From: a virus | Strand: one strand, 5' to 3' | DNA: 20,450 nt | Virus record (IMG/VR): IMGVR_UViG_3300026257_000035 | Coordinates: 1-20,450 of that record | In this document: piece by piece, positions 1-20,422 of the stretch | Numbering within the stretch: the first letter of the stretch is position 1 | Layout: each line of letters begins with the position of its first letter | The notes under the pieces: generated by a model | What the model was told of the DNA's origin: nothing | The model's database searches: none | What the model saw: the letters and a program-made list of their open reading frames with translations, nothing else | Made by a program: the position numbers and the translations under genes

Positions 1-3000
1 TGTGATAATCTTCTTGTGCCCATGCTGGGATGCCAAAGTCTGCAGCAACTTCTCCAGGAGAAAGGAGTAAGTTGTTACCTGCTTTCTGTGTGAGATACTT
101 AGCGTGCTCAAATGCATCAAGCATTGGATTCAACTCATGCTCAACATGGAGGATGTTGTCTTGATTATCCAAATACTGATCAATAAGTAATTCCACGTTG
201 TATGTGCCACCAGTGCAAAGGTCAGCAATTACAGCAGGGAGAATGAATTGCTTAATATCTCTCTCACAGGTTGGACGACCACCACCAGGAATGATGTGGA
301 ATTGTGTGAGAGTGCCGTTAAAATCAATCTCATACTTATCGAGAATATATCCAGCAACTTCTTCTGCGATATAGTCGCGGTTTTTCCAGATCAAGACACC
401 AGTGTCTCTGAAGATATCAGGATTAGGTGCCAAGACTTCTAGTACTTCACGACCCAAAGTATCAAACTCATCCTGGATGGATTGGGATGCAGGAGAAGAG
501 AAGTTATTAGGAATTCTCAATCTCTGAGTATATACACCCTTCAGATCTATGTCAGTTGTAGTAATTGCATACTTACAAAGGACAAATGCCTGATCCCATG
601 CATACAGAGTTTGCAGAATCTCGTTACTAACATGCTTCAGTTTGCCTGATGCCTCAAGGTAAGTACGAGCGGTATAAAGAGAGTTGTAGTTACCACCGTC
701 TCTCAAGTCCTTGACCAGAGCGCCGATGATGTAGTCTTTAGTATCCCTGACACAGTTGTTGGTACCTTGGTATGTGCCTTCGGCCACGTTGTTGCCAGGG
801 ACGACAAAATCAGGGAATGCTGCTTCCATTCTTCCGACTGCCTCTTCAGCAATCCATGCAGCGTTGAGGTCGATAATATCAGCACAGTTTCTGTGATCTG
901 ATCTACCTAGGTCAACGTTTTCAATGATCGCAAAGTTTTGATCGTAGTTAAGTTCCTTGACAGCAGCAGAAGAAATACGCTGACCAGTGTAGATAGCATA
1001 TGTTTCCTGATTATCTATGACGAATGGTTGCTCACCATCAAGACCAAACTTAACATACTGGTTAGAGTAGTCGATCTGAGTAGGAGGCACAAATCCAGTA
1101 TTGAAGTCGGACTGTCCATTCTTAACAACCACGTTGTCCATGTAACCAGTAAACTGACTAGCACCGTTGAAGTCAGCACCGATGTAGATGGCAGCATAAC
1201 CATAATCATTAGTGTCGGCATAGTTACCACCAACCTGCACGCCATCAACATAGAGTTGCAAGACGCTAGCAGTCCTGACAACTGCAACGTGATGCCAGTT
1301 GTTAGCAACCAGCGTGCCACCAGTCAGCAGTTGAGATGTGCCATTGTAAACTGTGATTGCACCGTTAGTCTGAAGAGTAATTCTCAAACCAGAGGAAACA
1401 GACAGACGACGGAAGTCAAACAGATGTTGTGTGGTGCTTAGATTATCTGCTCTAACCCAACCTTGGACGGTAAAGTCTGCAGTGTTGCCGAAGGAGAAGT
1501 CGTAACTATCTCTAGTAACCAGATATCCAGTAGCTGGGAATTTGATAGATTTTTCACCACTGAGTCTCTTGTATTTCTGAATAACACTTAGAGAAACACC
1601 GTTTTGGTTAGCAGTGGTGGAGTTGGTAACATACTCACCATCTTGGAAGGATCCTGTGATAGCATCGGCAAAGATCCACTTCAGACCAGAGTTAGATCCG
1701 ATTGCTTCAAATGTTGCACCGCTGGTAACACCAGTAATGGTGTCGCCAACAATAAACAAACCACCAGAGCGATCCTTATATGCAATCTTCGTTGTGCGGA
1801 TATTTTCGCCAGCAACGAATGTGCCGTCAGTGATGCTCGCGAGAGCGTTAATATTATTAAGATTTTGTGCTGTAATCGCAGTCGTAGAGATGTCTACGAG
1901 CGTAGCGATATATGCCTGGACATTAGCACAATTCTGGATTGTTTCATTTCGGCCTGAATCGTAATTGGGGTCGAAATACTTGGCAGTTGTGCCACCGCCA
2001 GTGAAGACTGCATTATCCAGTGCCTTGACAAATGTGTGTACATATCCACCACCACTACTGACTGCACCAGCAGCAGCAACAACGAAATCGTGGACATACT
2101 GATGATCATCAGGAGATGCACCAACATTAATAGTAATGGTAGTTGCAGTAGTACCATGGATAAACAGACGCTTGCCAGATGCAGGGTCAGTAGATCTAGG
2201 ATATAAGTGAGTACTGCCATTAGCATCCATATCACATGTTAATGTCAAGGAATCGTTGGCAATGGTCACATAGTCATTCAACTGAAGAGAGTGTGCTCCG
2301 ATAGTCAATTCCATGTCACCCGTTGCTGGATCGTATAAAGCATCAGTTGGGGTGTATTGGACTAGAGGAGTTGATCCAATGTCAACTGTGATTGTAGTAG
2401 CAGTCTTAGCACTAATAGCAAGAGCCGTGTTGAATGCAGGATCTCCAGCACGAGGATAGGCGTGGAGAGTTTCATCGTTATCGGCAGCACAAGTAAACGT
2501 CAGAGAGTGTGGACGGATCGTAACAGTATCCGAAGTTGTCAGTGTGTGATTGCCAATGGTAATAACCATTAGACCATTTGCAGGTGTGTAGACTGCATCA
2601 GACACATCAAATTCTTCCAGATCTGCCTCACCACCGCTGTAAGATCCTTGATATGTGGTAGGATCCTTCAGCATCAAACCTGGTGATAAGGTTCTGGTAT
2701 TGACTTGATAATATAGAAGGTTGTTGATTGCTTGGAATGACAAGTGCATTGCCTTATCGATAGCAGTCAAAGATTCTGCATACTCACCGATTAGACCGTT
2801 AGTAATAGGTGCTCCAACAGCATCGAAATACTTCTTAGTGAATTCGATGATGTTATAGTTACCACCCTGAGAAATGTCTTCTGCCAAAGCATCGATCATT
2901 AGACCGATGTCACGACGACACTTGATTTGACCAGGAGAATAAGATCCAAAGGACTCACTGGGGAGGTCAACCAGCGTGCCATTCAGCAGAGTTTCATCAA

Positions 3001-6000
3001 CCACATCATAGAGAGTGGTAATTGATGCTTGGACATCGCTGCAGTTGTCAGTGCCATTGTTGGACTGGTTAGCACCGTTAGTGCCGTACGGATCGTTAGG
3101 TGATGGGTCAGCAGTAATACCGTTACCATCGTAACCACTATGATCAATCTCACTATAAGGGGTATAGGTAATACCTGCATTAGGTCTACCAACAGACTGA
3201 CCAACATGGACTGTAATTGTGGTTGCAGTTACTCCATCAATATTAAGAGCAGTATTATATGCTGGGTCAGTAGATCTAGGATATGTGTGAGTAGTGCCAT
3301 TAGAATCCATCAAACAAGTGAATGTCAATGAATTAGGAGCAATTCTAATTGCAGTTCCTTCTGATAAGGAGTGACTACCAATCGTTAGTTCAATTGCACC
3401 AGTACCTGTATTATAAATTGCATTCGTAACATTATGATTTACGATAGGTGCTGCACCAACATCTAAAGTGATTGTTGTTGCTGTTACAGCAGTAATGTTA
3501 ACAGCTGTTTGATATGCAGGATCAGTTACTCTAGGATAAGTCTTATCAGAAGAATTACCATCCATCAAACAAGAGAATGTCAATGAATTATCAGCAATCC
3601 TAACACTTGTGTTAGCAGTCAAACTATGACTACCGATAGTCACTTCCATCAATCCTGATACTGCATCATAAGTTGCATTCGTAACATTATGATTTACGAT
3701 AGGTGCTGGACCTACGTTTATAGTAATGGTATCTGTGGTTGTACCTATAATAGCAATATTTGATCCAGATACAGGGTCAGTTGCTCTAGGATATGTCTTC
3801 CATCCAGTTACTGCACCAACGTTAACTGTAATTGTTGTACCAGTTGCAGATATAACTGGAAGAGACGTATTATATACAGGGTCAGTAGATCTAGGATATG
3901 TGTGAGTAGTTTGATCTTGATCCTTAGTGCAAGTAAATGATAGAGAATTTGCTGCGATAATAATTGTATCAGCAGATGTATAGCTATGAGATCCAATCGT
4001 TAATTCTAAGATACCAGTTGTAGGTGTGTATGTTGCATCAGTTACATCCTTCTGCACACTACCATTAACTGTTACTGCATTAGATGCTGTGCCACCTACC
4101 CATGTATGTGGAGAACCAGTACCCATACCACAAGTAAAGGTTAGTGCATTGTTAGCAATAGAAATTGTATTTGATGTTGTTAACCCATGCCCAGCAGAGG
4201 TGATGATCATATCACCAGATGAAGCAGTATATACTACATCTGTAACTATGTTTGGTAAGTTACCTGTATTTGATGTAACTCCATTTACTACAGCAGGTGC
4301 AACAAATGTATGTGTATAGTCACCACCAGATTGCACTGCGTTAGATGCTGTGCCACCTGTCCATGTGTGTGTATAGTCACCACCAGACTGTACTGCGTTA
4401 GATGCTGTGCCACCTGCCCATGTGTGTAGACTGTCACCACCAGCATTAGCTGGCACCTGGAAAACAGCAGTCAGATTGTTGGTGATTGCCAACTTCATCA
4501 TATCTTTTGCTTTTTCAAATCCATAACGAGTCTCAGCAGACTCATTATTCACATACACAAAATTGCCAAGAGAATCAAAGAACTTCTCACAAAGTTTACG
4601 AGTATAGACGTTACCACCACGGAAAATGTCAATGGAGATAGCATCGATATACAACTCAAGGTCACGGATACACTTATTAGGATCAGGCACAGCGAGTGAC
4701 GTATATTGCGTCATCATCTCATCGTATGCCTTATTAGCAATGTATGACTTATTCTTTTGAATCAGACGATATGCGTCAGAATACCTACTCCAAGAGTTAG
4801 TAATAACATCACCAGGGAAGTAGTATCTGGGGTGCTTAACAGCGATTTCTGCTTCAGCAAAATCAACGATTTGATCTTTGTTGCCAAGGATCATTGCCGA
4901 AGCATCTTTGAATCTATTGGTAGCAGCACCATGGAATACGGAAACGGGGTTGCCGTAGTTTGCTCTGTTGTTAATAACAATATCGCCTTCTTGGAAGTTG
5001 CCACCTGCCAATTGAGTGTATTCAACTTCAGTATTTCTAACTTCTTCAAAGTCAAGGAAGTCATTATTAATTCTGCTAGCAGAATCGTAAAGTTCAGTAG
5101 GTGTAATGGAAGATTGAGAAATGTTATCGATAATAACATTAGGATTAGTAATACTAACCAGACGCTCAAACAGCAGACCATAGAATGTAGATCCTGGGTT
5201 GATAATCAACTCATCAACAGGGTCGCTAGTAGCGGGGTCAATATAAGGAGAGATGAATGTAATCTGACCAGCAATCTTGGAACCTGCTGAGTAGACAAAC
5301 TCATTCAGTCTCAGATCAAAGATACCAGTTTCAAACTGTGCAGTACCTGAGGTCTTACTGACTACGATGGCATCGGTAACATTACCCTGATCATCGATAT
5401 TAGTTTCTTCAATGATGGCAGTATCACCATCAAGATTGCTGATGGATTCACCAAACTGGAAGATAGTCTCGCTATTGATAGCAGTAACACTCAGGATAAG
5501 TCCAGAGAAGAGGGTGGTGCGCTTAATTTCTTCATTCAGGTTGAATGTGCCACCAACTAAGTTGATAACGTCGATATGAGTCGTGCCAGAGTCGATAACA
5601 GTCGCAATAACGTCGCTATCTGCACCTTGGACTTGCTGACCCAATGTTGGGAAGATACCAAAGTTTGGTGGACCTGCCTGACCAGAATACAATTCAATTC
5701 TGTAAATTGTGGTAGGAGTAATTTCTAGAGACCTATAGTTAACTCTAGATGCTGGTTTTGGTGCCTCATCAAATACAAGGTTACCACCAACAACGCTATA
5801 TGAAACTCCAGGTGCCTGAATCACACCGTTGATAGTAACCAACAACTGATTCTCTTGGACGATAATCTGCTCACCTTCTACAGTAAGTGGGAATTGCTTA
5901 TCAATACCATTAAACTGCTCTTGGATATTATCAAGTTTCTTCACGATAGAGGTCAAGATTTCCTCAGAGGAAGTCAGACGCTTTTTACGGAAGAGGACTT

Positions 6001-9000: not shown

Positions 9001-12000
9001 AAGTATTAAAGGATCCGTAGATTTTCCCCACAGAATACTCGGTGCCAAGACCAGGATTCTGCACAGTGCCTGTTGGGACCTCTGTAATAGTACCAAAAGC
9101 AGTAGTAGTGCCAACATCGTTAAACTGCTGCAGAATAGAATACTTAGTAAGTTTAATTGGTTGGGTAAATGTAAACTGTTGGACGTTATCAATCTTCTGA
9201 TATAGAGCATCCCTCATGTAGAATTTGGGGATAACATCAGCAGAGATAATTAACCTCTTACCACGAGGTGAAGGAATGGTAGAAGTCTTAGATGCATACT
9301 GGTCATACACTGAAGATAGTGTATATGTACCAGGGATCAACGTGGAGAAAGTCTGGGACATGTCCAGAATTTGCAGACCACCAGGACCCTCATTCCACAC
9401 AGAAATTGCTCCTGGAGAAATACTTGTCCAGGTCATTCCAGCAACATGATCAGTGAATGCAACAGTGCTATGATTATTAAGACCAGTCAGGGTGTATGAT
9501 GCACGCTGAGTATGTGCTCTATCAAACTTGATCAGTGCAACATCGGAGTTGGATGTGGTGATTGCAATTTCAGCAGTTGGCACAGTGTATGAAGTGCCAG
9601 GATATTGAGCAGCATCATCGAGCACAAAGTCGTCGATGTTACCACGGAAAGAATTGCTTGTGTTTGGAGGACTGGAAGGACCACAGATAACAACATCATC
9701 AAGAGCAACATCAGTAGTGCTCTGATAAGTGATCTGTTGATTACCACCAATGAATACCTCATAACGATACAGACCCAGAGATTCTTGACGCTTCTGGACA
9801 GTAACATGGACCCATGCACCAGCAGCAAAGGCATCCCAGTTAGTTGCAGCAACAGAAGAAGCAACCTGAGTGCCATTCAAGTAAAGGATAACCTTTTGAT
9901 AGTCAGGATCGGTATTATCACCTTGAATAGTTGCAGTAATTGAGTTGGTATTAGTTGCATCGTTAACATGCAACAGTGTGGGCTCATGAGCAGTATTCCA
10001 TACTGTAGTATTCATGGACATCCACATTCTGCCACTCCACTCAACAGGGGTCAGACCCAAGTCAGAGATAGTGATAGGTGCAACGGCGTTAAACTTCAGA
10101 GATCCGCCATCAAACTTATAAACAGCAGCATCATGAGTGATATCAGACTGACTAAAGTAGCTGTAGGTACCGAGATTTTGCTTAGTGGTATCCTCAACAG
10201 GATTTACACTGTTGCCCATTCTCCAGGAGACGAGCTGATCAGACTGCTGACGGTTGACAGCAAGAATGGTGTCACCAGAGTTATCCAAAGCATGAGTATA
10301 CGCTTGGAAACCAATACTTGCGGTGTCATCAACTTTTGTCTGATGAAGCAGAGTACCGTCATACTTCATGTAAGAGATAACTGAATATCTCTGATTCTGA
10401 TCCCCAATTACATCAGAAACGAGAGTGTAGTTACCCCACTGATCATATGAGATACCTGCATGGTGCATTTCAAGGAAATTACCAGTAGTAGTAACGGTCT
10501 TACTCCAATCCCAAGTAGTTTGTGCAGTAGAAAGGAGGAATTTGTTGATCTGGATCTTATCGTACTTAGATGCTGCAGAATTAAAGACATCCCAAGCAAC
10601 AATAATTGAACCATAGTCATCCATGACCATTGTTGGGTTGACAACACGTCCACCCACCGTAGGAATCTGCTTGCTCCAATCAATCTCAAGGTTTGCACCA
10701 TCGTAGAAGAATTCACCGAAGATCAAGTCATCATTTTGGTCGTTAACACCAATAAAGAAGAATCTATCATCGGAGATCATCATGATCTGATGCATTTTCT
10801 CAGAATCATCCTGAGATGCAACTTTACGCTTCTCAACCAGATCGCCTTCAATACCACACTGGATGATCCACATATCATCGGGATCAACAGAGTTGGTATC
10901 GGTATAACCACAAAGGTAGATACGTTGCTCTTGATCAAGAGCGATAGAAGTTACATAGTCTCTTCTAGTACTGCCAGAGATACCAGCGATTGCTCTCTGC
11001 CACTGCAGGATACCGTCAGGATCGTTTGCATTGTTGAATCCAGACTCATAAAGTCCTAACCATATGTCTGGGTTGTACAGATCGTTGTCAGGATTCTTTG
11101 TTTGGCCTGTAACATATATGAGGTCGTTTTCTGGAGTGTCATTGACCACCATCTTGAGGAATTCAGCCCTCTTCTGAAGGGCATTAGTAGGAATGAGAGT
11201 CCTCTCCCAGATTCTCTGACCCAAGTCATCAAACTTGGCAAGGAAACCAGCTTCATCACCATCTGTCTCAGTAATCTTACCGCAGATATAGGTATAGCGT
11301 TGTGAGGTAACCTTAATATCGTTGACTTCAACGATACCATCTGCTTCCATGTATTCGGTCAACCAATAGCGAGTTTTCTTAAACTGCTGTGGATGGGAGA
11401 CACGAATTTGAGGAGGCTCCTCAGGATCATAACCATTACCAGAGTTGATAATGTTGACTGTGTTGATCTGACCAGTATTTTGTAAGACAATCTCTAGTTG
11501 ACCATCTTGACCAGCAGATGTGATCAATTCAAACGTAGGAGGAATATCTTCGTTGTAACCAACACCAATCTGATTTACATTGATACGCTCAACACCAGAT
11601 ACAACTTTAACTTTGAAGTTCTTGTTGGTGTTATCAATAACGGGAGAAGAGTTAAGAATCAACTCATCTTGCTGACGCAAGTCGTGATTAGCTGCTGTAT
11701 TAATCACACCATATGGACGATCTCCGATGATCTCCTTACTGTATGATTGGATGACTTGACCCTTAACCGATTCGATAAGTGCAGAAGCACCGAAACCACC
11801 AGTGTCTTGATCATCAAAGAAGATGGTATCATTAACCTGATAGGACTGGCCTGGGTTTTCAATAACGAAACCGTCAATCTGAGCATCTTCAAACTGAGTA
11901 GTTGTCTCAACTTCGATGTCAACTCTAGACTCTTCAGAAACCTGAGGGAAGTAATCATAGATTTGTAGGGTTGCCTCTTCAGACATCTCAAGGACTTCTT

Positions 12001-15000
12001 GTTGCTCATTAGCATCAATGATTCCGTCACTATTACTATCCTGGACCTCAAAGATAAGAGGATAACCTTCAATCTCAGTCGTTAGGACATCTGCTTCCTG
12101 GTTAGGTTGACGATCAACATCGATGTCAACGTTGACATAAGGATCTCTATACCTTACAACGTTTTGTGGAATATTTTCCTGAGTTGCACCTTGGGTAAAG
12201 TTCCATGGATCAGGCAGTGAGTTAAACTGAGGACCGAGGATATATGGGAATTCTGCAACACCTGCTTCAGATGCATCAATAGTAATAAAGTATGCATAGG
12301 TGCCATCAGGATATTGAGGTGTCTTACAGAAGCGACCATTATAGTTGTCAAGATCCCCAGACTGGAAGTCGTACTCATAGTCAGCAACAAACGATCCAGC
12401 AGGATATGAATCCAGTGCAGGTCCATCAATACGGGCAGGATTTGGATTAGTTGCTAGATCATAGACAACGTTATCTTTTAGTTTATATGAAGTGCGAAGT
12501 CTTCTGATTCCGCTGTTTTGGTCAGTTGGGTCAATGTAACCATAGGGACCGTAGATTGGGTTACCATCGTAAGCCCAACCCAGAATAGGAGAGTGCTCAT
12601 AATTAGATGATACCTCTTGAAATTGTTGTGTTACAGCATTAAGGAAGACGTTATCGCCAACCACATAACGAAGCTCTTTAGGATCACTGAGGTGAGCATA
12701 CTCACCACCAAACTGGTTATTCAAACCAGTAAAGACGTATCCTCGTGCTCCATCATACTTAGCAGTAAGATCATACTGAAGGTTTTTATTCCACTCAAAA
12801 ACTTGTGGAGTAAACTCAGCAAAGTCACCGACAGACTCAAGTCTGACAGTAGTAAGACCTTGGGTATATCCAATACCTTTGTTGCTGATCTCAACACTAA
12901 GGACTCTACCTTTGTCTTCACCAACAGTGCCGATAATTGCTCTTGCAATAGCACCAAAACCATCACCATTGATTACAATGGTGGGAGCAGTAGTATATCC
13001 ACTACCTGAGTTAATGATAGCGATAGAAACAATACGACCATTGATAACAATGGGTTGTGCCAAAGCACCTTCACCAGAGTTAACTCTAATGCTAGGCAAC
13101 TCAGTGTAACCACTACCATTGGCAGTGATACTGACACTCTGTACAGGACCACGGACATTTGCAGTTGCCTCAGCACCTGTACCGCCGCCACCAGTAACTG
13201 AAACGCTAGGTTGTGAGGTATATCCAGTACCTGGTTGCTCAACCAGGATTTTAGTGACACGACCACCCGTTACGATAGCTTGTGCAGTTGCTCCGATACC
13301 ACCACCACCAACGATGGAGACTAGAGGAGATTCTGTATATCCGCTACCTTCTACAGTAACAACAAAGGAAGTCAGACTACCATTAACAACAACTTCACCA
13401 GTAGCACCTGTACCACCGCCACCAGTAATTTCCAGAGCAGGTTTGGATCCTGCATCATAGTCTTGACCAATGTTAGTAACAGTGATGTCAGTCAGAGGAC
13501 CGAATCTAACAAAGTCGCCAGACTTGTATGCCCAGATAGACACACCATTCACCCAAGCACCAATCGAGGTGTTTGCTGAGATATCTTGACGCTCAGAAAT
13601 GGTTTGGACAAGTCTGGGGAATCTAAGCAGTTTACGCTGGTTACCAGGAATCAGTGCCGAACCTGTGAAAGGACCCACCCTATAATTGGGTAGACCAGAG
13701 GAAGCAACATAAACATGATCATCATTAAAGAAGGAGTTTTGGATATTTGTTGTAAACTCACTAACAACACTGTTGATTGAATTGACATCAGACTTACCTC
13801 TGTTTAGGTCCACAGAGAGAAGAATGTTACCTTCAGGAATGATCTCTGTGGGAGTATTGATCTGGTATGTGAATTGAAATGCATCAATACGAGAAGTAAC
13901 GGTAAAGGTGCCGTTGAATACAACAGGGTTAGCACCATAAATCGTCACCTGATCGGATACCAGTAGACCGTGTGGGTTACCACAAACAACAGTAGCAGTC
14001 TGGTTATTAACACCACCAGGGGTGATACTGGTAACCTGAATTAGTTTCTTAACGTTATACAGCCAGGAAGACAGTCTTTCATCTTCATCTGAAGATCCAA
14101 GTTTAGCAACCTTTAGTTTGTCGCCTTGCAGATAGTAAGATCCAGTATCCTCCAGGATAGTTGTACCTGCTTCTGCAATACCAAGCACTCTGAGTTTACA
14201 CTCAGCAGATGTGCCCTTATTGACATATACAAAGATTTCAGAGAATATAATCGTGCCAGGATCCCAGTCTTCTACAACACCATTCTGTGATCTGGTGCAT
14301 TCGATAAACTGGTTAAGTGATTTCTCTTTATACTGTACGATTTCCTGATCGTTAATACGAATGGTGCCGTTTCTTTCTGGCCATCCAATCGTGGAGTCAA
14401 CGGTAATAATCTGACCAGTTGTAGTCAACGGCTCAACTAGAGTCGTCTTATAAGGAATGATGAAACTACCAGTTAGCGTCTCTTCAGAGATTGCCAATTC
14501 GTAGATAGTGTCCTTACCTTCAATAATGGTAATAACGTTTTCAATCAGAGCATTTGCTGCCTTGACACTAAGGTCAACAGAATCAGCATACTGGATAAGT
14601 TGTGAGTCAATCAGATTAGCAGGGTCACCTGAGATCAACTCAGCACGCAGCACCGTGTCAACAACCCATGCTGCAGCAGATGGTGAGATGATTTCTTCAC
14701 GGGGATAGTAGATATCCACCTGCTCGCCAAACATGATCTTAAACAGATACTGTGTAGCAAGCTCAGTGCCTTTACTAATGTAAAAGTCACTAATACTCTT
14801 AATTACTTGGACTGGATTGATTACAGAATAATCAATCTTAATATTGGGAAGATATTGTCTTCTAAATTTGTCAAAGACTTCTTTGATAAACAAAGAATCT
14901 AGGTTAATAACTGTAGATGCTGCAGGGTGAGTAGACTGACGCAGTGCTGCTTCACCTGCATAGATCTCATTATGGAGGATGTCATATCCAACAGCACCAG

Positions 15001-16885
15001 ATACACCACGACTACATCCTAAGAATGCAGAAGGGGAATATCCACTACCCTTTTCAATGATCTCGTAACCAGTCAGCTCGTTGAAACCAACAGCAACAGA
15101 TGCTCTTGCTGCTTGAGGCTCAGCAATGTAAATCTTAGGAGGCTCTGTCTCAGAATATCCAGTACCGAAGTTGGTAATGTTGATATCAGTGATTTCGCCG
15201 TTAAAGATAGTTGCAGCAGCAGTTGCACCTGTGCCACCAATAGGATCGCCGTAAGAATCTTTTCTATCATCGACGATATACACAGAAGGAGCATCGGTAT
15301 AACCGTTGCCACCTGTTAGCATTTCGATATTGGTAACGTTACCAGATGCGACAGTAACGTCAAGCACCTGAGCACCAATAGGTTGAATAATTCTTGCTCT
15401 AGGTGGGGTTACATACTCTCTACCTCTGTTTGTAATAACGATCTCATAGACTTGACCGTCTTGGTTGATTCTGGAAATTGCCTGAGCATTAATACCACCC
15501 TCAGGTGCTGGATCCAGATAAACAATAGGAGGATTACTATAGTTCAGTCCAAATTCTTCGACAGCAATACTGTCAATGTTTACACGACCTTCACTATCAA
15601 TTGTAGGTTGACCAATTTTGCAACCACCAGGATTAAGAAACGAAATAGCAGGGATAAAGTCATATCCACTACCAGAATTCATAATAGTCAGACTATCGAC
15701 CTGACCTGTTGTATCATTTACAGTCAGAGTGACTTTTGCCAGTGTACCACCTGTAGGAGCGCCTACAAGGGCGATAGGAGGGTTATATGACGTGTAACCC
15801 TGTCCACCATCAATTAGGTTGATATCCTTGATACCACTAACCAAAGTTTTGGCAGTCGCACCCACACCTGTGTTGTGCTGGACTACAACTTTAGGTTCAA
15901 AATCTAGTCTGTAACCACTACCACCAGTTTTAGGAATTAGGCGGTCAACTTGACCAAGACTATCGACAGAGACAACTGCAGATGCTCCAGATCCAAAAGA
16001 AGGGGCAATATACTCAATAGAGCGAATATGAATATCATCAGCAGCACCCAGTGGGAATCTAAAGATAATCTCACTTCCATATACTGTATAGTCGGTATAT
16101 GGCTCAAGTTGGCGAGTGTTTTTCTTAACAATCAGACCAATTGCTGAAGTTGGGGTATATGGTTGTGTATTTACTCTGAGAGGATATTCTTTCTTACCTT
16201 GATACTCTTCAAAGGGAATGGCATCAGTTGTGACGATCGCTTGATCGGCATACCCAACCAAATATACAATTTCAGTGAATGCAGAGTCATCAGCACCAGA
16301 TCTCTCACGAGGAGCAACAGCAAAACGAATCTCATTGCCTTCAAGGAAATAATCAGTCCCAGGGACCAACATTTCATTATATGTGATAACAATTAGGTGA
16401 TCTACTGAAGGGGGATTTACAGGAGTGCCTAAAAAACTAAGAGGGAATTTATTTCTAGTCCCATCAAACAACTGGAAGGGATTTTCTAGTTGTTGTTTCT
16501 TTTTATCAAACTGATCAGGAGAAACACCTGGAGTAACAATAGCATCAGGTCCACGAGTAACAGTCTCGTAGTAAATTACCTCATTATCGATCTTAATAGA
16601 TCCATCGGTTTCCTTGAAACCATTAATCGACTCAATTGTGATAGTTTCATCGTACAGACCAATATCACTCAATAAGAGTGTGTCATTTGACAATTCGTCT
16701 GAGGTATAACCGTCGAGATCCAGATAACCCAGAAGATTATTCAGAATATCGTAAGGACGACCTGTTTTTTCTTGAGACTTGTAATACTGGAAGAGAAAAT
16801 CAACAAATTGTCGATCTTCCTCCCTAATAAATTCTGGGAGTTGATTTTCAACTCTATCCGAAATGGCGATATTCTTGTGTGGCAT
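1..16885 (-). CDS. Giant mosaic virion structural protein, 3' end beyond window (at least 5628 aa)
   Basis: The frame starts at ATG 16885-16883 (MPHKNIAISDRVENQLPEF), 5 bases after the gp6 stop, and I read it without a stop to base 1, so the C-terminus is missing. Domains by residue: N-terminal head 1-75; GxGY beta repeats about 312-624, 1129-1351, 1667-1829 and 3119-3319; helical DFYISKGTE segment 655-760; YHYH domain 1427-1550; SBBP-like propeller 1862-2219; LamG-like 2249-2440 and 5108-5269; two Y-x(2)-G-x-x-V modules 2658-2781; conserved IQDSFFYQNFSYVV segment 3523-3584; YPR-TDP beta repeats 4214-4561 and 4760-4925; CxRD helical repeats at 4070, 4656, 5378 and 5540. No signal peptide or membrane segment was seen. 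It sits where T4 has gp7/gp8, but I see no clear gp7 resemblance. From memory, marine T4-like phages carry large structural genes with these motifs near gp6. Role as a tail or baseplate fibre is inference. There is no good Shine-Dalgarno, so translation is probably coupled to gp6. Confidence 0.93.
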   Translation of the reverse strand, partial: MPHKNIAISDRVENQLPEFIREEDRQFVDFLFQYYKSQEKTGRPYDILNNLLGYLDLDGYTSDELSNDTLLLSDIGLYDETITIESINGFKETDGSIKIDNEVIYYETVTRGPDAIVTPGVSPDQFDKKKQQLENPFQLFDGTRNKFPLSFLGTPVNPPSVDHLIVITYNEMLVPGTDYFLEGNEIRFAVAPRERSGADDSAFTEIVYLVGYADQAIVTTDAIPFEEYQGKKEYPLRVNTQPYTPTSAIGLIVKKNTRQLEPYTDYTVYGSEIIFRFPLGAADDIHIRSIEYIAPSFGSGASAVVSVDSLGQVDRLIPKTGGSGYRLDFEPKVVVQHNTGVGATAKTLVSGIKDINLIDGGQGYTSYNPPIALVGAPTGGTLAKVTLTVNDTTGQVDSLTIMNSGSGYDFIPAISFLNPGGCKIGQPTIDSEGRVNIDSIAVEEFGLNYSNPPIVYLDPAPEGGINAQAISRINQDGQVYEIVITNRGREYVTPPRARIIQPIGAQVLDVTVASGNVTNIEMLTGGNGYTDAPSVYIVDDRKDSYGDPIGGTGATAAATIFNGEITDINITNFGTGYSETEPPKIYIAEPQAARASVAVGFNELTGYEIIEKGSGYSPSAFLGCSRGVSGAVGYDILHNEIYAGEAALRQSTHPAASTVINLDSLFIKEVFDKFRRQYLPNIKIDYSVINPVQVIKSISDFYISKGTELATQYLFKIMFGEQVDIYYPREEIISPSAAAWVVDTVLRAELISGDPANLIDSQLIQYADSVDLSVKAANALIENVITIIEGKDTIYELAISEETLTGSFIIPYKTTLVEPLTTTGQIITVDSTIGWPERNGTIRINDQEIVQYKEKSLNQFIECTRSQNGVVEDWDPGTIIFSEIFVYVNKGTSAECKLRVLGIAEAGTTILEDTGSYYLQGDKLKVAKLGSSDEDERLSSWLYNVKKLIQVTSITPGGVNNQTATVVCGNPHGLLVSDQVTIYGANPVVFNGTFTVTSRIDAFQFTYQINTPTEIIPEGNILLSVDLNRGKSDVNSINSVVSEFTTNIQNSFFNDDHVYVASSGLPNYRVGPFTGSALIPGNQRKLLRFPRLVQTISERQDISANTSIGAWVNGVSIWAYKSGDFVRFGPLTDITVTNIGQDYDAGSKPALEITGGGGTGATGEVVVNGSLTSFVVTVEGSGYTESPLVSIVGGGGIGATAQAIVTGGRVTKILVEQPGTGYTSQPSVSVTGGGGTGAEATANVRGPVQSVSITANGSGYTELPSIRVNSGEGALAQPIVINGRIVSIAIINSGSGYTTAPTIVINGDGFGAIARAIIGTVGEDKGRVLSVEISNKGIGYTQGLTTVRLESVGDFAEFTPQVFEWNKNLQYDLTAKYDGARGYVFTGLNNQFGGEYAHLSDPKELRYVVGDNVFLNAVTQQFQEVSSNYEHSPILGWAYDGNPIYGPYGYIDPTDQNSGIRRLRTSYKLKDNVVYDLATNPNPARIDGPALDSYPAGSFVADYEYDFQSGDLDNYNGRFCKTPQYPDGTYAYFITIDASEAGVAEFPYILGPQFNSLPDPWNFTQGATQENIPQNVVRYRDPYVNVDIDVDRQPNQEADVLTTEIEGYPLIFEVQDSNSDGIIDANEQQEVLEMSEEATLQIYDYFPQVSEESRVDIEVETTTQFEDAQIDGFVIENPGQSYQVNDTIFFDDQDTGGFGASALIESVKGQVIQSYSKEIIGDRPYGVINTAANHDLRQQDELILNSSPVIDNTNKNFKVKVVSGVERINVNQIGVGYNEDIPPTFELITSAGQDGQLEIVLQNTGQINTVNIINSGNGYDPEEPPQIRVSHPQQFKKTRYWLTEYMEADGIVEVNDIKVTSQRYTYICGKITETDGDEAGFLAKFDDLGQRIWERTLIPTNALQKRAEFLKMVVNDTPENDLIYVTGQTKNPDNDLYNPDIWLGLYESGFNNANDPDGILQWQRAIAGISGSTRRDYVTSIALDQEQRIYLCGYTDTNSVDPDDMWIIQCGIEGDLVEKRKVASQDDSEKMHQIMMISDDRFFFIGVNDQNDDLIFGEFFYDGANLEIDWSKQIPTVGGRVVNPTMVMDDYGSIIVAWDVFNSAASKYDKIQINKFLLSTAQTTWDWSKTVTTTGNFLEMHHAGISYDQWGNYTLVSDVIGDQNQRYSVISYMKYDGTLLHQTKVDDTASIGFQAYTHALDNSGDTILAVNRQQSDQLVSWRMGNSVNPVEDTTKQNLGTYSYFSQSDITHDAAVYKFDGGSLKFNAVAPITISDLGLTPVEWSGRMWMSMNTTVWNTAHEPTLLHVNDATNTNSITATIQGDNTDPDYQKVILYLNGTQVASSVAATNWDAFAAGAWVHVTVQKRQESLGLYRYEVFIGGNQQITYQSTTDVALDDVVICGPSSPPNTSNSFRGNIDDFVLDDAAQYPGTSYTVPTAEIAITTSNSDVALIKFDRAHTQRASYTLTGLNNHSTVAFTDHVAGMTWTSISPGAISVWNEGPGGLQILDMSQTFSTLIPGTYTLSSVYDQYASKTSTIPSPRGKRLIISADVIPKFYMRDALYQKIDNVQQFTFTQPIKLTKYSILQQFNDVGTTTAFGTITEVPTGTVQNPGLGTEYSVGKIYGSFNTSDRFRTTTVGGDINQIEGTYFDAEEEESPWQQLTAYAQGDRVYNQKRIYEAQSAGTSGTIAPQHNTGVVSDGVINWAFIDDAGKFNIDLTEHPYPRPQYTGLDMPEWLPHRLYATGQRVWYKLNVYQVAVGGGGVTTTTPPTHTTGDVSDGTVTWSFVETSEAISLYTRLMPYDLGNNYRIEILEIHPGSNYIPNDVVSVNIGNITLTEDEKSVEISGFASVKKIRITARLEKDVILSSSLRTSKVYCTSNSPHFYKEDEIIFTEGFSGDQYNGSFFIDDVIGSREFTFGIRATAVSDPTFVNNGIANVNIYAKHPTLIFTRNHQYNFELSDVSNFGYYLSFSQDNQYKLEYSFNNTVREGTPGIAGAGSSTPFVKFLALGDVTNISYYFDPSRTGDNSPVGVNSYIDVITTPYQGRFNISEIVSDTEFKFPLHKEPERSNAEIGSDDQGNEYSYYSTTSTRAVGPINTIKLVSPGGFYKKLPIISDIASFRQIEKVVIDDGGTEYAPGVYYDVPVDGDGEGGKVTVTVLLDDETGSGTIASVDVADPGKGYTIASVDIDAITGILGPTLSGSGGAVSVIIPSEGSGASVFLTGKNIGKIKRLKNNEFGFGYSHDYTLKPEITFPVNLQLFNTSILSEIKITDPGAGYTSTPAVVIDGGGGSGADAVAIIKNNRLNEIIIKNPGAGYSSEPTITLKSEFNYVVNLDLNYLQFNFPHGITTGAEIQFRAEDVGSTEGVLPKPSSAGLTSLVAGQLYYAIAGQVNSLESDQIRFALTLQAAQAGDYITFLTQGSGRQVLLTEVFGGKAEAVVETSRFLEGEEVFQGSAVELSSATGKVSTNTGWQIGPKILKIVDYDGDWKIGEKVIGSISKASGIIDNLSIARGVLNIGSLTKTPGKFIDNVGKPSEIVQKIQDSFFYQNFSYVVKSEIPITKWKTQILENNHPAGFNMFGQLQIVGGKDVSGRKVGTEFTKEVNINNYSNVNQITSFGAAQPIYTDYNNTEVLFRKKRLTSSEEILTSIVKKLDNIQEQFNGIDKQFPLTVEGEQIIVQENQLLVTINGVIQAPGVSYSVVGGNLVFDEAPKPASRVNYRSLEITPTTIYRIELYSGQAGPPNFGIFPTLGQQVQGADSDVIATVIDSGTTHIDVINLVGGTFNLNEEIKRTTLFSGLILSVTAINSETIFQFGESISNLDGDTAIIEETNIDDQGNVTDAIVVSKTSGTAQFETGIFDLRLNEFVYSAGSKIAGQITFISPYIDPATSDPVDELIINPGSTFYGLLFERLVSITNPNVIIDNISQSSITPTELYDSASRINNDFLDFEEVRNTEVEYTQLAGGNFQEGDIVINNRANYGNPVSVFHGAATNRFKDASAMILGNKDQIVDFAEAEIAVKHPRYYFPGDVITNSWSRYSDAYRLIQKNKSYIANKAYDEMMTQYTSLAVPDPNKCIRDLELYIDAISIDIFRGGNVYTRKLCEKFFDSLGNFVYVNNESAETRYGFEKAKDMMKLAITNNLTAVFQVPANAGGDSLHTWAGGTASNAVQSGGDYTHTWTGGTASNAVQSGGDYTHTFVAPAVVNGVTSNTGNLPNIVTDVVYTASSGDMIITSAGHGLTTSNTISIANNALTFTCGMGTGSPHTWVGGTASNAVTVNGSVQKDVTDATYTPTTGILELTIGSHSYTSADTIIIAANSLSFTCTKDQDQTTHTYPRSTDPVYNTSLPVISATGTTITVNVGAVTGWKTYPRATDPVSGSNIAIIGTTTDTITINVGPAPIVNHNVTNATYDAVSGLMEVTIGSHSLTANTSVRIADNSLTFSCLMDGNSSDKTYPRVTDPAYQTAVNITAVTATTITLDVGAAPIVNHNVTNAIYNTGTGAIELTIGSHSLSEGTAIRIAPNSLTFTCLMDSNGTTHTYPRSTDPAYNTALNIDGVTATTITVHVGQSVGRPNAGITYTPYSEIDHSGYDGNGITADPSPNDPYGTNGANQSNNGTDNCSDVQASITTLYDVVDETLLNGTLVDLPSESFGSYSPGQIKCRRDIGLMIDALAEDISQGGNYNIIEFTKKYFDAVGAPITNGLIGEYAESLTAIDKAMHLSFQAINNLLYYQVNTRTLSPGLMLKDPTTYQGSYSGGEADLEEFDVSDAVYTPANGLMVITIGNHTLTTSDTVTIRPHSLTFTCAADNDETLHAYPRAGDPAFNTALAISAKTATTITVDIGSTPLVQYTPTDALYDPATGDMELTIGAHSLQLNDYVTIANDSLTLTCDMDANGSTHLYPRSTDPASGKRLFIHGTTATTITINVGASPDDHQYVHDFVVAAAGAVSSGGGYVHTFVKALDNAVFTGGGTTAKYFDPNYDSGRNETIQNCANVQAYIATLVDISTTAITAQNLNNINALASITDGTFVAGENIRTTKIAYKDRSGGLFIVGDTITGVTSGATFEAIGSNSGLKWIFADAITGSFQDGEYVTNSTTANQNGVSLSVIQKYKRLSGEKSIKFPATGYLVTRDSYDFSFGNTADFTVQGWVRADNLSTTQHLFDFRRLSVSSGLRITLQTNGAITVYNGTSQLLTGGTLVANNWHHVAVVRTASVLQLYVDGVQVGGNYADTNDYGYAAIYIGADFNGASQFTGYMDNVVVKNGQSDFNTGFVPPTQIDYSNQYVKFGLDGEQPFVIDNQETYAIYTGQRISSAAVKELNYDQNFAIIENVDLGRSDHRNCADIIDLNAAWIAEEAVGRMEAAFPDFVVPGNNVAEGTYQGTNNCVRDTKDYIIGALVKDLRDGGNYNSLYTARTYLEASGKLKHVSNEILQTLYAWDQAFVLCKYAITTTDIDLKGVYTQRLRIPNNFSSPASQSIQDEFDTLGREVLEVLAPNPDIFRDTGVLIWKNRDYIAEEVAGYILDKYEIDFNGTLTQFHIIPGGGRPTCERDIKQFILPAVIADLCTGGTYNVELLIDQYLDNQDNILHVEHELNPMLDAFEHAKYLTQKAGNNLLLSPGEVAADFGIPAWAQEDYH
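74..268 (-). repeat. CxRD...GGTYN helical repeat, copy 4
   Basis: Residues about 5540-5604 read CERDIKQFILPAVIADLCTG, GTYNVELLIDQYLDNQDNI, then DAFEHAKYLTQKAGNNLL. The lead-in helix is KNRDYIAEEVAGYILDKYEI. Spacing from copy 3 is 162 residues, which is probably the natural period where nothing is inserted. More copies may lie beyond the left edge. Confidence 0.75.
563..754 (-). repeat. CxRD...GGNYN helical repeat, copy 3
   Basis: Residues about 5378-5441 read CVRDTKDYIIGALVKDLRDG, GNYNSLYTARTYLEASGKL, then LYAWDQAFVLCKYAIT. The lead-in helix is NAAWIAEEAVGRMEAAFPDF. The copy follows the second LamG domain. Confidence 0.75.
1079..1564 (-). other. LamG/concanavalin-like domain 2 of the giant protein
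   Basis: Residues about 5108-5269 begin KSIKFPATGYLVTRDSYDFS and continue with NTADFTVQGWVRADNLS, HLFDFR, LRITLQTNGAITVYNGTSQL, NNWHHVAVVRTASVLQLYVD, a DG-V-G hairpin, YIGADFNG and FTGYMDNVVV. This is a textbook LamG-type jelly roll: F-T-[VI]-x-x-W-V, the N-W-H-H-V-A strand, L-x-L-Y-V-D-G and F-x-G-x-[ML]-D-x. Such domains commonly bind glycans. Confidence 0.88.
2111..2608 (-). repeat. YPR-TDP beta-repeat block B (2 units)
   Basis: Residues about 4760-4925 carry two further units of the same family as the block at 3203-4246: one with TIGNHTLTTSDTVTIRPHSL and HAYPRAGDPAFNTAL, the next with TIGAHSLQLNDYVTIANDSL and HLYPRSTDPASGKRL. They are separated from the first four units by a helical CxRD module, so the two repeat families are interleaved. 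Confidence 0.8.
2714..2920 (-). repeat. CxRD...GGNYN helical repeat, copy 2
   Basis: Residues about 4656-4724 read CRRDIGLMIDALAEDISQGG, NYNIIEFTKKYFDAVGAP, then AIDKAMHLSFQAINNLLYY. The copy lies between the two YPR-TDP beta blocks, with an NCSDVQASITTLYDVV lead-in helix upstream. Confidence 0.7.
3203..4246 (-). repeat. YPR-TDP beta-repeat block A (4 units)
   Basis: Residues about 4214-4561 hold units of about 85 residues. Each reads V-T/S-[DN]-A-x-Y-x(3)-[ST]-G-x-[ML]-x-[IV]-T-I-G-x-H-[ST]-L, then I-A-x-[ND]-[SA]-L-[ST]-F-[ST]-C, then T-YPR-[AV/S]-TDP-x-Y-x-T, then a T-T-I-T-[VL]-[DN]-V-G strand. Unit 2 (about 4050-3690) carries an extra YPRATDP hairpin. The first unit is the most degenerate and has the GGTASNAV sequence in place of YPR-TDP. 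Confidence 0.8.
4315..4431 (-). repeat. 57-base tandem repeat, two units plus a distant partial copy
   Basis: Two adjacent 57-base units are almost identical in DNA. They encode HTWAGGTASNAVQSGGDYT and HTWTGGTASNAVQSGGDYT, followed by a third start (HTF). A partial relative encoding HTWVGGTASNAV lies at about 4070-4112. The unit is exactly 19 codons, so copy-number change keeps the frame. Unlike the diverged protein repeats elsewhere in this gene, this is a recent or homogenised duplication. Confidence 0.85.
4466..4678 (-). repeat. CxRD...GGNxY helical repeat, copy 1
   Basis: Residues about 4070-4140 read CIRDLELYIDAISIDIFRGG, then NVYTRKLCEKFFDSLGNFV, then a helix YGFEKAKDMMKLAITNNL. A lead-in helix with NKSYIANKAYDEMM precedes it. 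The unit is C-x-R-D-x(3)-[FYM]-I-x(3)-[VAL]-x-x-D-x(3)-GG-[NT]-x-Y. I recall similar C-RD...GGN blocks from marine phage structural proteins; their function is unknown to me. Confidence 0.7.
6133..6320 (-). other. Conserved IQDSFFYQNFSYVV...HPAGF segment of the giant protein
   Basis: Residues about 3523-3584 read FIDNVGKPSEIVQKIQDSFF, then YQNFSYVVKSEIPITKW, then NNHPAGFNMFGQLQIVG. I recall closely similar blocks (IQDS-YYQDFSYVV...HPAGF--FGE) from structural proteins of cyanophages and pelagiphages. This supports a marine myovirus origin. The function of the segment is unknown to me. Confidence 0.6.
6929..7531 (-). repeat. GxGY beta-repeat cluster 4 (4 clear units)
   Basis: Residues about 3119-3319 include EKVVIDDGGTEYAPGVYYDV, SVDVADPGKGYTIASVDI, KITDPGAGYTSTPAVVIDGG and IIIKNPGAGYSSEPTITL. 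They have the same unit and the same GGGGSGA turn as cluster 2, about 1800 residues further along. An isolated relative (EIHPGSNYIPNDVV) lies near residue 2806. Reuse of one module at distant places suggests that the protein grew by internal duplication. Confidence 0.7.
8543..8914 (-). repeat. Two Y-x(2)-G-x-x-V carbohydrate-binding-like modules
   Basis: Residues about 2658-2707 (WQQLTAYAQGDRVYNQKRIY, then TSGTIAPQHNTGVVSDGVIN-W) and 2733-2781 (WLPHRLYATGQRVWYKLNVY, then PPTHTTGDVSDGTVTWSF) are two copies of one module. The pattern W-x(4-5)-Y-x(2)-G-x-x-V-x(5)-Y resembles small chitin-binding (CBM5/12-like) modules. The DG-x-[IV]-x-W ending is common in phage tail proteins. Glycan binding is inferred. 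Confidence 0.6.
9566..10141 (-). other. LamG/concanavalin-like domain 1 of the giant protein
   Basis: Residues about 2249-2440 begin with YKFDGGSLKF and continue with WSGRMWMSMN, a VILYLNGTQVASS strand, AGAWVHVTVQK and FRGNIDDFVLDD. This order (small folded start, W-H-V strand, N/D-G hairpin, G-x-I/M-D-D/N end) is the jelly-roll signature of LamG-type domains. Such domains often bind glycans. The match is somewhat weaker than for the second LamG copy at 1079-1564. Confidence 0.65.
10229..11302 (-). other. SBBP-like beta-propeller domain of the giant protein
   Basis: Residues about 1862-2219 show repeated blades of the SBBP type: a strand with G-F-L-A-K-F-D-D-L-G-x-R-I-W-x-R, then D-x-I-Y-V-T-G-Q-T. 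Further blades are IALDQEQRIYLCGYTDT plus MWIIQCGIEGDL, MMISDDRFFFIGVNDQND, TMVMDDYGSIIVAWDVFN, ISYDQWGNYTLVSDVIGD and HALDNSGDTILAVNRQ. Six or seven blades of 45-60 residues would make a closed propeller. This fold is typical of bacterial extracellular proteins, and I infer it from the blade pattern only. Confidence 0.65.
11399..11887 (-). repeat. GxGY beta-repeat cluster 3 (3 units)
   Basis: Residues about 1667-1829 contain DGFVIENPGQSYQVNDTIFF, INVNQIGVGYNEDIPPTFEL and NIINSGNGYDPEEPPQIRV. They match the unit seen in clusters 1 and 2 but are spaced more widely. The block links the YHYH region to the propeller-like domain. Confidence 0.65.
12236..12607 (-). other. YHYH domain of the giant protein
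   Basis: Residues about 1427-1550 contain HSPILGWAYDGNPIYGPYGY, the hallmark block of the YHYH family. It is followed by a DYEYDFQSGDLDNYNGRFC segment and the second hallmark CKTPQYPDGTYAYFITID, ending at FPYILGPQ. YHYH proteins are widespread in bacteria and marine phages; their biochemical role is not established. Here the domain is embedded between GxGY clusters 2 and 3 and is not a separate gene. Confidence 0.85.
12833..13501 (-). repeat. GxGY beta-repeat cluster 2 (6 units, glycine-rich)
   Basis: Residues about 1129-1351 are the most regular block. Units such as VTVEGSGYTESPLVSIVGGG, LVEQPGTGYTSQPSVSVTGG and SITANGSGYTELPSIRV repeat every 35-40 residues and are linked by GGGGTGA-type turns followed by a short A-x-A/V strand. 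The period, the glycine turns and the strand pattern would fit a beta-helix or beta-solenoid shaft. That fold is inference from pattern only. Confidence 0.8.
14606..14923 (-). other. Helical DFY-SKGTE segment of the giant protein
   Basis: Residues about 655-760 switch from beta repeats to amphipathic helical sequence: KEVFDKFRRQYLP, then IKSISDFYISKGTELATQYL, FKIMFGE and VDIYYPREEI. The block [ILV]-x-DFY-x-SKGTE...FLFK.LFGE...YYP is one I recall from structural proteins of T4-like cyanophages and other marine myoviruses. Its function is unknown to me. It lies between GxGY clusters 1 and 2. Confidence 0.55.
15014..15952 (-). repeat. GxGY beta-repeat cluster 1 (about 8 units)
   Basis: Within the giant protein, residues about 312-624 hold successive units of 30-45 residues. 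Each has the pattern hydrophobic-x-hydrophobic-x(3)-G-x-G-Y-x(3-5)-P-x-hydrophobic. Examples are PKTGGSGYRLDFEPKVVV, TIMNSGSGYDFIPAISF and MLTGGNGYTDAPSVYI. The units are diverged at the DNA level, so this is a protein repeat rather than a recent tandem duplication. Alternating polar and hydrophobic residues suggest beta strands. Similar repeats are common in marine phage structural proteins, as I recall. Confidence 0.75.
16660..16885 (-). other. N-terminal head of the giant protein
   Basis: Residues 1-75 of the giant protein contain a predicted helical stretch (FVDFLFQYYKSQEKTGRPYD) followed by an NNLLGYLDLDGY turn. They are followed by a strand-rich module with the pattern ES-NGF-ETDGSI-IDNE-I-YY. 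A second copy of that module occurs near residues 822-876 (DSTIGWPERNGTIRINDQEI-V-Y). A helical head directly after gp6 is a plausible baseplate-docking end, but that is inference. Confidence 0.55.
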
Positions 16886-19054: not shown

Positions 19055-19468
19055 TCAGGTCTTCTCTAAGAGGAATGTTACTTCTTGGGTTATATTTTCT
19101 CCAGTAATCAAATATTCAAGCTCAACTTGAATTCCATTCAGATCACTGTCATCACGGACACTAACATCCTGTACAGTAATCCGTGGCTCAAGACGCTTAA
19201 GGCAATCACGAATTTCACCCTTGATAGCATCCGCCGCGAATGGATCCCATTGCTCAAAAAGAAGACCCTTCACCCGACTTCCAATGTTCGGCTGAAAAGG
19301 TCTTTCACCTAATATAGTCAATAACAAATTTCTTACAGATTGATTGATTGCTCTCTCATTCTTGACAGCGCCAAAGTCATCAGTAGAAGGATTTGAATTA
19401 AAGGAAATTGCTAAGTCCTTAAACCCTCTACTGACGTACTGGTCTGATCTGAATCTGTAAGCAGGCAT
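19055..19468 (-). CDS. 25: Baseplate wedge protein gp25 (GPW/gp25 family)
   Basis: This 137-residue protein belongs to the gp25 family, a lysozyme-fold-named but structural wedge protein. In T4-like phages and contractile injection systems it joins gp6 in the inner baseplate and helps start sheath assembly. Visible signatures are the N-terminal DLAISF and NERAINQSVRNLLLTILGER, the F-QPNIGSRVKGLLFEQWDP loop, and the conserved EPRI core (LEPRITVQDVSV, residues about 93-104) followed by VELEYLI. Length is normal for the family. The ATG directly abuts the stop of the 48-aa gene upstream (TAA-ATG), and a GAGGG Shine-Dalgarno lies 5 bases before it. The next gene downstream is gp6, the partner it binds in T4. 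Confidence 0.96.
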   Translation of the reverse strand: MPAYRFRSDQYVSRGFKDLAISFNSNPSTDDFGAVKNERAINQSVRNLLLTILGERPFQPNIGSRVKGLLFEQWDPFAADAIKGEIRDCLKRLEPRITVQDVSVRDDSDLNGIQVELEYLITGENITQEVTFLLEKT

Positions 19469-19978: not shown

Positions 19979-20422
19979 TCAGGATGATAGCACAGTTGGG
20001 TGTCCAAAGGCAACCACTGAGGAGCATGGATATGAGAATCCAGGAAATCCTACACCCAGTGGGTCTAGGATCCTCGCAATGGGGATCTTGAATGCAAAGA
20101 CTGTCAGAGTAGTTGGGAAGAGAACTCTAGGATGTCCCACGCCACCAGCATCCTCAATAGTCAGTACGCTGCAGATGATGGGTGTAGGGATAGGACACAC
20201 ACCCTTACCGCATGGGCAGATGTATATAATGATATTTGTACACGGCGAGATATGGGGCATGAATGTATCTCCACCAATCATGATAGGGATAAACTGCACC
20301 ATCACCGTCGCTCGTATTGGGTTGACCCCTGTAATGGGGATTAGAGGTTGGGGTGGCCACCAGCATGTAAAATTCTTAATGATAATGCTGTAGGGCACTG
20401 GAGGGGTCTTACACCACTGCAC
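19979..20422 (-). CDS. PAAR-repeat spike-tip protein (gp5.4-like), start uncertain
   Basis: The frame encodes a PAAR protein, the sharp cap that sits on the central spike (gp5 trimer in T4) and is stabilised by a metal ion. The PAAR features are CWWPPQP (residues 20-26), IGGDTFMPHISP (49-60), then LTVFAFKIPIARILDPLG (106-123) and the closing CSSVVAFGHPTVLSS (133-147). At 147 residues it is longer than T4 gp5.4 (about 97). A cysteine-rich stretch (ICPCGKGVCPIPTPIIC, 68-84) lies between the two halves. The start used is GTG, but the frame stays open to the right edge (LCLPATIHS before it), and a further GTG follows at residue 9. The true start may lie outside the window. The plus-strand frame at 20079-20393 is its shadow. 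Confidence 0.85.
   Translation of the reverse strand: MQWCKTPPVPYSIIIKNFTCWWPPQPLIPITGVNPIRATVMVQFIPIMIGGDTFMPHISPCTNIIIYICPCGKGVCPIPTPIICSVLTIEDAGGVGHPRVLFPTTLTVFAFKIPIARILDPLGVGFPGFSYPCSSVVAFGHPTVLSS

Follow-up and report, generated by a model that had tools for sequence, protein, structure and literature searches.

A giant gene next to gp6 in a T4-like marine cyanophage, read as a probable enlarged baseplate wedge initiator

INTRODUCTION

In phage T4, gp7 binds its wedge partners and starts the assembly of the baseplate wedge, and its gene follows that of gp6. T4-like myoviruses have been described as ubiquitous, and few genes of ocean systems are reported to be more abundant than theirs (PMC3037559). 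Cyanomyoviruses have been reported without wac, g10, g11, g12, g34, g35, and g37, and their counterparts of the tail fibers were described as missing or unassigned (PMC2984593). Long tail fibers were likewise reported as absent from phage S-SZBM1, as seen by TEM, and from its near relatives (PMC9146016). In contractile injection systems, the gp7-like part has been described as laterally exposed, fiber-binding, and an evolutionary hotspot (PMC8894135).

Very large proteins encoded next to gp6 are already known from cyanophages. Five cyanophage records hold genes of 6,619–8,573 aa in this slot, and the P-SSM4 homolog (7,312 aa) was the largest bacterial-virus protein of the data set in which it was reported (PMC8553790). 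The S-SZBM1 homolog, S-SZBM1_208, was detected in virions with 71 peptides, 13.5% coverage, and an emPAI of 0.41, compared with 0.23 for gp6 (PMC9146016, Table 1); within Table 1 and section 3.4 of that paper, it appears only in the table, the section being silent on it (PMC9146016). Furthermore, cluster T4-GC969, the number carried by the Syn19 homolog, was found in the virions of S-SM1 (PMC3037559).

Here, we analyzed a stretch of 20,450 bases, the whole of an IMG/VR virus record (hereafter, the window), that contains such a gene. The giant gene is a further example of these known cyanophage baseplate-slot proteins and not a new kind of object; what we add is the evidence of gp7 homology, the split backbone, and the site of module insertion. 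In a search of titles and the starts of abstracts, which had most subscription papers outside its range, we found no description of a split-gp7 architecture or of module gain in a gp7-slot gene. Should the largest structural gene of cyanomyoviruses prove to be an enlarged gp7, there would be a concrete target in looking for host-contact parts, with mapped cores and a mapped variable site. The size series in one slot, from 607 to 8,573 aa in the records compared, is likewise a natural experiment in wedge-protein growth.

RESULTS AND DISCUSSION

The giant frame and its completion

The features of the window are listed in Table 1. On the minus strand, gp25 and gp6 are followed by the giant gene, whose ATG (16885) is separated by 5 bases from the end of gp6 (16891). 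From this ATG, the frame runs without a stop for 5,628 codons to the window edge, and its translation begins with MPHKNIAISD and ends with GIPAWAQEDYH. The initial annotation had described a single uninterrupted gene of at least 5628 codons, starting 5 bases after gp6 and bearing these two landmarks; the ORF map, the identification of gp6 by PF21379, and the translation agree with all of this. Its third landmark, a YHYH block in the middle, stands in part: the domain is present, but at about one quarter of the protein's length from the N-terminus, and the four letters YHYH do not occur as such in the protein. A chance open frame was rejected, as the probability of such a stop-free run is approximately 10^-150 under the base composition of the window and the same frame is kept in diverged homologs. 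A 104-aa frame on the plus strand (20079–20393), without a Pfam match, is probably not a gene.

Table 1. Positions of genes, domains, repeats, and core segments in the window
Feature	Position	Strand	Basis or remark
gp25-like baseplate wedge subunit (137 aa)	19055..19468	-	PF04965 E 1.4e-15, phrog_261 E 4.2e-50
gp6-like baseplate wedge subunit (720 aa)	16891..19053	-	PF21379 E 5.7e-17, phrog_219 E 1.1e-195
Giant gp7-slot baseplate gene, residues 1-5628 of about 8136	2..16885	-	3' end outside window
GxGY glycine-rich repeat block 1, residues 292-591	15113..16012	-	iterated HMM
gp7 core segment 1, residues ~662-914	14144..14902	-	helices, then domain-V-like beta domain
Small beta-barrel nested in domain-V-like region, residues 811-883	14237..14455	-	predicted model
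GxGY glycine-rich repeat block 2, residues 1140-1350	12836..13468	-	iterated HMM
YHYH domain, residues ~1392-1538	12272..12712	-	PF14240 E 2.7e-29
Single beta-propeller (SBBP) repeat match, residues ~1970-1997	10895..10978	-	PF06739 E 3.5e-5
gp7 core segment 2, residues ~3538-3585 (SYVVKSEIPITKWK...HPAGFNMFG)	6131..6274	-	colinear with T4 gp7 ~862-897
Helical GGN repeat, residues 4072-4133	4487..4672	-	
57-bp tandem repeat, 2.4 copies, N-terminal edge of 419-aa block	4306..4443	.	
419-aa block of ~80-aa HTYPRxTDP modules, residues 4147-4565	3191..4447	-	
Helical GGN repeat, residues 4656-4719	2729..2920	-	
Two HTYPRxTDP modules common to relatives, residues 4761-4840 and 4846-4925	2111..2605	-	
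Laminin-G/concanavalin-like lectin domain, residues ~5130-5254	1124..1498	-	PF13385 E 7.7e-20
Helical GGN repeat, residues 5378-5440	566..754	-	
Helical GGN repeat, residues 5540-5602	80..268	-	

The gene had been described as still incomplete in the window, with extension to the stop as the proposed check. A near-identical contig, IMGVR_UViG_3300026269_000002, which differs from the window in 6 of 5,628 codons, supplies 2,508 more codons and then a TAA. The completed product has 8,136 aa, a mass of 879.6 kDa, and a pI of 4.5; at about 880 kDa, it is among the largest phage structural proteins, as had been suggested. A second contig, 3300026263_000010, differs in 3 of 5,628 codons. For eight contigs, overlapping loci were joined; the gene is complete in six of them (7,070, 7,072, 7,072, 7,291, 7,295, and 8,136 aa) and cut by the contig end in two.

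For three of the six diverged contigs, dN/dS was 0.159, 0.137, and 0.169 overall and 0.064–0.297 in blocks of at most 400 codons; the 419-aa block of modules is absent from these relatives and so lies outside the calculation. The near-identical contig was uninformative in this respect, with 6 changed codons, 5 of them amino-acid-replacing. Because the overall ratios lie at 0.137–0.169, the length of the giant gene that can be read in relatives is, on this substitution evidence, protein-coding, and by the same measure the frame is maintained under purifying selection.

A family of genes in one slot

When the first 1,000 residues were used as a tblastn query, 475 of 50,697 phage records matched, with at least 80% of the query covered in 290 of them, and 457 of the 475 were named Synechococcus, Prochlorococcus, or Cyanophage. 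The nearest named relatives of the source phage belong to the Kyanoviridae (T4-like marine cyanophages). In all 16 phage records compared, the homolog lies directly after gp6, or after a wedge-annotated CDS in its place. According to the annotated coordinates, the homologs measure 8,573 aa in P-RSM6, 7,351 in P-TIM40, 7,312 in P-SSM4, 6,737 in S-WAM1, 6,619 in S-SZBM1, 6,483 in Syn19, 5,422 in S-CREM1, 4,225 in ACG-2014f, 4,120 in S-SCSM1, 4,067 in Bellamy, 3,884 in S-CAM9, 3,032 in S-CAM1, 1,937 in S-CREM2, 1,454 in S-CRM01 (complete), 896 in Melnitz-3, and 607 in BUCT-ZZ01. The expectation that annotation would miss such a gene was not borne out, as the homolog is annotated as one CDS in each of the 16 records.

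The PHROGs family phrog_701 (6,136 positions), a “virion structural protein,” matched all six slices of the ORF (E-values of 0 to 5e-149), with the best stretches in model order, and its similarity extends along the length of the window ORF. PHROGs assigns this family to “head and packaging,” whereas position and homology here point to the baseplate. Slice-wise profile searches and a comparison with the cyanophage genes after gp6 had both been proposed as checks, and they gave phrog_701 in 6 of 6 slices and the same slot in 16 of 16 records.

S-SZBM1_208 (6,619 aa), annotated as “baseplate wedge initiator,” occupies the same slot, shares 61.7% identity over 933 query residues, and has both gp7 segments and seven helical GGN repeats; it differs in having neither a match to the HTYPRxTDP module nor the 419-aa block. 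P-TIM40_99 (7,351 aa), a putative structural protein in the same slot with 64.3% identity at the N-terminus, has five HTYPRxTDP module matches and eight helical repeat matches and lacks the 419-aa block. The same slot is occupied in P-RSM6 by CPXG_00128 (8,573 aa) and in P-SSM4 by gp7 (7,312 aa), both of comparable size and with a homologous N-terminus; the former is longer than the present gene, and the latter has 46.0% identity at the N-terminus. T4 gp7 (1,032 aa) is approximately eight times shorter. It shares the slot and two colinear similar segments, and its domain V is overlapped by the predicted core-1 model in a structural alignment, whereas no counterpart of its N-terminal domains or of domain VI was found in the giant protein.

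Two colinear segments similar to gp7

The similarity to T4 gp7 is concentrated in two core segments, which are approximately 2,800 residues apart and in the same order as in T4 gp7. A core-1 profile, built from window residues 601–960 and 43 IMG/VR relatives with no T4 gp7 record included, matched the T4 gp7 family in hhalign over residues 696–799 (probability 95.5, E-value 1.5e-8). The matched part corresponds to T4 gp7 ~730–814, the end of the helical part and the start of domain V, and the same profile gave probabilities of at most 0.5 against T4 gp6, gp8, gp9, gp10, and gp11. Core 2 matched T4 gp7 with a probability of 79 (E-value 1.6e-5) when two short homologs were included; with close relatives only, the probability dropped to 30 (E-value 5.4e-4). 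In pairwise blastp, 12 of the 16 homologs matched T4 gp7 ~645–762 with E-values of 1e-3 or lower, and the remaining four gave 0.005–0.15. Seven homologs extend far enough to be compared with T4 gp7 ~862–922 (nine loci end earlier); six of them matched it with E-values of 1e-4 to 0.013, the order being the same in each. The complete S-CRM01 homolog (1,454 aa) gave only 0.69 for the second segment and 0.15 for the first.

Furthermore, phrog_26741, 2885, and 17744 were matched both by T4 gp7 (residues 646–759) and by the window. In the reverse direction, a T4 gp7 profile found both segments in S-SZBM1_208 (whole-protein E-value 1.1e-5; domains 8.6e-4 and 0.005); it also touched S-SZBM1 gp6 (E-value 4.4e-4, T4 322–435), outside both segments. 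Seven other structural proteins of S-SZBM1 were compared, and none matched either core 2 or the helical motif of core 1. The Pfam gp7 models PF21427, PF21428, and PF21456, all of which T4 gp7 itself matches, gave no match in the window (six slices at E ≤ 0.01; residues 601–1000 at E ≤ 10), and a match to PF23786 (Baseplate_wedge) was below its cut-off (20.7 vs 27 bits).

The AlphaFold2 model of core 1 (mean pLDDT 61.2) has a confident beta domain at residues ~741–900, with block means of 69–92, and poor helices with values below 60; the core-2 model was unusable (mean pLDDT 33.6). VIA-align placed the core-1 model on residues 765–853 of 5iv5_BJ (Z 9.0, 88 residues, rmsd 5.5). The entry 5iv5 contains T4 gp7, chain BJ is gp7 by its length and numbering, and residues 765–853 are read as domain V (PF21427 at 766–861). 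Four chains of other proteins scored above 5iv5_BJ (Z 9.2–10.7), three of which cover the nested barrel, and two slightly below (8.3–8.5); five of these six match the small nested barrel alone, and 8jov_1 covers a wider range. A Foldseek search of the core-1 model against the PDB returned nothing at E ≤ 0.001; 5iv5_BJ was ranked 14th (E-value 0.18), and a T4 baseplate chain, 5hx2_E, was first (0.014). The best named matches in BFVD were cyanophage and other phage proteins, and in phmmer the sole PDB match of the N-terminal 1,000 residues was unrelated (E-value 0.8). The overlap of the predicted model with domain V is support for gp7 identity, not proof of it. VIA-align also found barrels like that at residues 811–883 in F1-ATPase chains and in several phage chains from tails, baseplates, and tailspikes.

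Because of the blastp and hhalign matches, together with the support from the fold, the gp7-slot reading has become stronger, moving from position to homology. The initial annotation had placed the gene where T4 has gp7, and both the gene order in the 16 records and the hhalign match to T4 gp7 are in line with this. From these sequence comparisons, the best reading of the giant protein is a counterpart of T4 gp7, the wedge initiator, with enormous insertions. We consider it highly probable that the product of this gene is the wedge initiator of the baseplate in a T4-like marine cyanophage, enlarged to approximately 8,100 residues.

It seems unlikely, by comparison, that this is mainly a long fiber or adhesin gene lying in the gp7 slot, with the gp7 similarity marking an attachment segment and wedge initiation passed to another protein. 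Although much of the recognized content is fiber- or adhesin-like (LamG, YHYH, phrog_5342, and phrog_4527), both gp7 segments are matched by two same-slot homologs as short as 607 and 896 aa. Its annotators gave the label of baseplate wedge initiator to S-SZBM1_205 (615 aa) as well, but this protein matches neither core 2 nor the helical motif of gp7. Its match to the core profile covers only the small beta-barrel (E-value 7e-8), and it was rejected as the true gp7.

T4-like phages cleave their head proteins, and this precedent, with the extreme length of the chain, would suit a second alternative, in which one translated chain is cut into several virion proteins in the manner of a polyprotein. 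We regard this as quite improbable, as no Pfam protease domain was found at E ≤ 0.01 in the window ORF slices or the completing part, and cutting would part the gp7-like segments near residues 700 and 3,560. The published coverage of S-SZBM1_208 (13.5%) fits one chain or several (PMC9146016). The initial annotation had called the giant gene a virion gene, and this is supported through S-SZBM1_208, shown by others to be present in virions (PMC9146016).

Architecture around the cores

The number of helical repeat matches is nearly fixed: among the 10 genes long enough to count, nine have seven and one has eight, and the cut genes have four (the window) and five (3300026263_000010). The HTYPRxTDP matches, with partial ones counted, number 16 in the completed gene and 3–5 in six diverged IMG/VR contigs (one cut) and P-TIM40; S-SZBM1 and S-WAM1 have none. 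The HTYPRxTDP modules are not covered by any Pfam model at its cut-off. In tblastn, one HTYPRxTDP module was found in 324 of 50,697 phage records, named Synechococcus, Cyanophage, Prochlorococcus, or Marine. The window ORF also matched the PHROG fiber families phrog_5342 and phrog_4527. Two matches below the Pfam cut-off, Phycobilisome at residues ~4037–4095 (E-value 0.0047) and E1_FCCH in the completing part (0.001), were treated as chance.

If the giant protein is an enlarged gp7, its two gp7 segments would lie together with gp6 in the inner part of the wedge, as they do in T4, and the N-terminal part of ~600 residues, the insertion of ~2,600 residues, and the C-terminal extension of ~4,500 residues would form peripheral arms. 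Such arms, composed of lectin-like, YHYH, and repeat domains, may do the work of T4 gp10, gp11, gp12, and the fibers. We infer the attachment to gp6, the arms, and their surface contacts from the reported lack of wac, g10, g11, g12, g34, g35, and g37 in cyanomyoviruses (PMC2984593), which a gp9/gp10 N-terminal match in S-SZBM1_206 qualifies, and from the description of the gp7-like part of injection systems (PMC8894135). On this view, recombination would bring in module blocks, and the phage could vary its surface contacts with the core of the wedge left intact. The giant protein carries domains of types common among adhesins, and its adhesion or receptor contact is putative, being drawn from the names of these domains only.

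Gain of a module block

The 419-aa block is absent from all six diverged joined contigs and from the three aligned phages. When both flanks of the block were searched, 58 loci, representing 46 distinct contigs, held both. Among these 46, the block is present in the two near-identical contigs, and the site is empty in 43 (−12 to 0 residues relative to the window flanks). The other contig (L103) has 208 residues at the site (ORF residues 1048–1256), containing two HTYPRxTDP modules. Because L103 holds a separate insertion and 43 of the 46 sites are empty, the site appears to have taken module blocks at least twice, or blocks have been lost many times.

The GC content at four-fold sites was 21/250 (8.4%) in the block and 858/3,407 (25.2%) in the remainder of the gene (Fisher p 6e-11), the latter omitting residues 5840–6528, a second module-rich stretch with 11.3% four-fold GC. 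Low four-fold GC is not a property of all modules, because the shared modules at residues 4761–4925 have 24/97 (24.7%); the shared module at 5840–5919, with 5/41 (12.2%), goes against a clean rule. Judged by these sites, the codon composition of the 419-aa block is foreign. Possible donors exist, because similar module arrays occur in other contigs: two (L389 and L390) have ~50% identity over the whole block, and a third (L391) has one stretch of 77%. The block is best read as a recent gain, presumably from a phage of lower GC content.

An assembly artefact, whether in the long frame or in the block, is scarcely credible and was rejected: the window is a 20.5-kb metagenome fragment, but the two other contigs, differing over 5,628 codons by 6 and 3, also carry the block, isolate genomes have intact frames of 6,619–8,573 aa, and diverged relatives keep the frame.

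On the reading of the gene as gp7, a more far-reaching proposal is that gp7 serves as an evolvable chassis, in which the inner wedge segments are kept and entire blocks of host-facing beta modules, from phages of other base composition, are imported at fixed sites flanked by helical repeats. A single gene would then stand in for much of T4 gp10, gp11, gp12, and the fibers as the receptor-contacting periphery. We offer this tentatively and would not ourselves favor it at present; the stronger evidence for module gain leaves its standing unchanged because the receptor role is putative.

Neighboring genes

The next gene after the giant one, seen at L087:21691-23277, encodes a 528-aa YHYH protein (PF14240, E-value 4.1e-34) like S-SZBM1_207, and the YHYH domain is thus common to adjoining genes. 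S-SZBM1_206 matched the gp9/gp10 N-terminal model (PF07880, E-value 4.6e-8), and because of this match, to say that gp10 is absent may be an oversimplification. S-SZBM1_203 (L158:7348-14688), from the same wedge cluster, is a further large protein of the baseplate region, a 2,446-aa structural protein with DUF4815, for which 53 peptides were reported from virions (PMC9146016).
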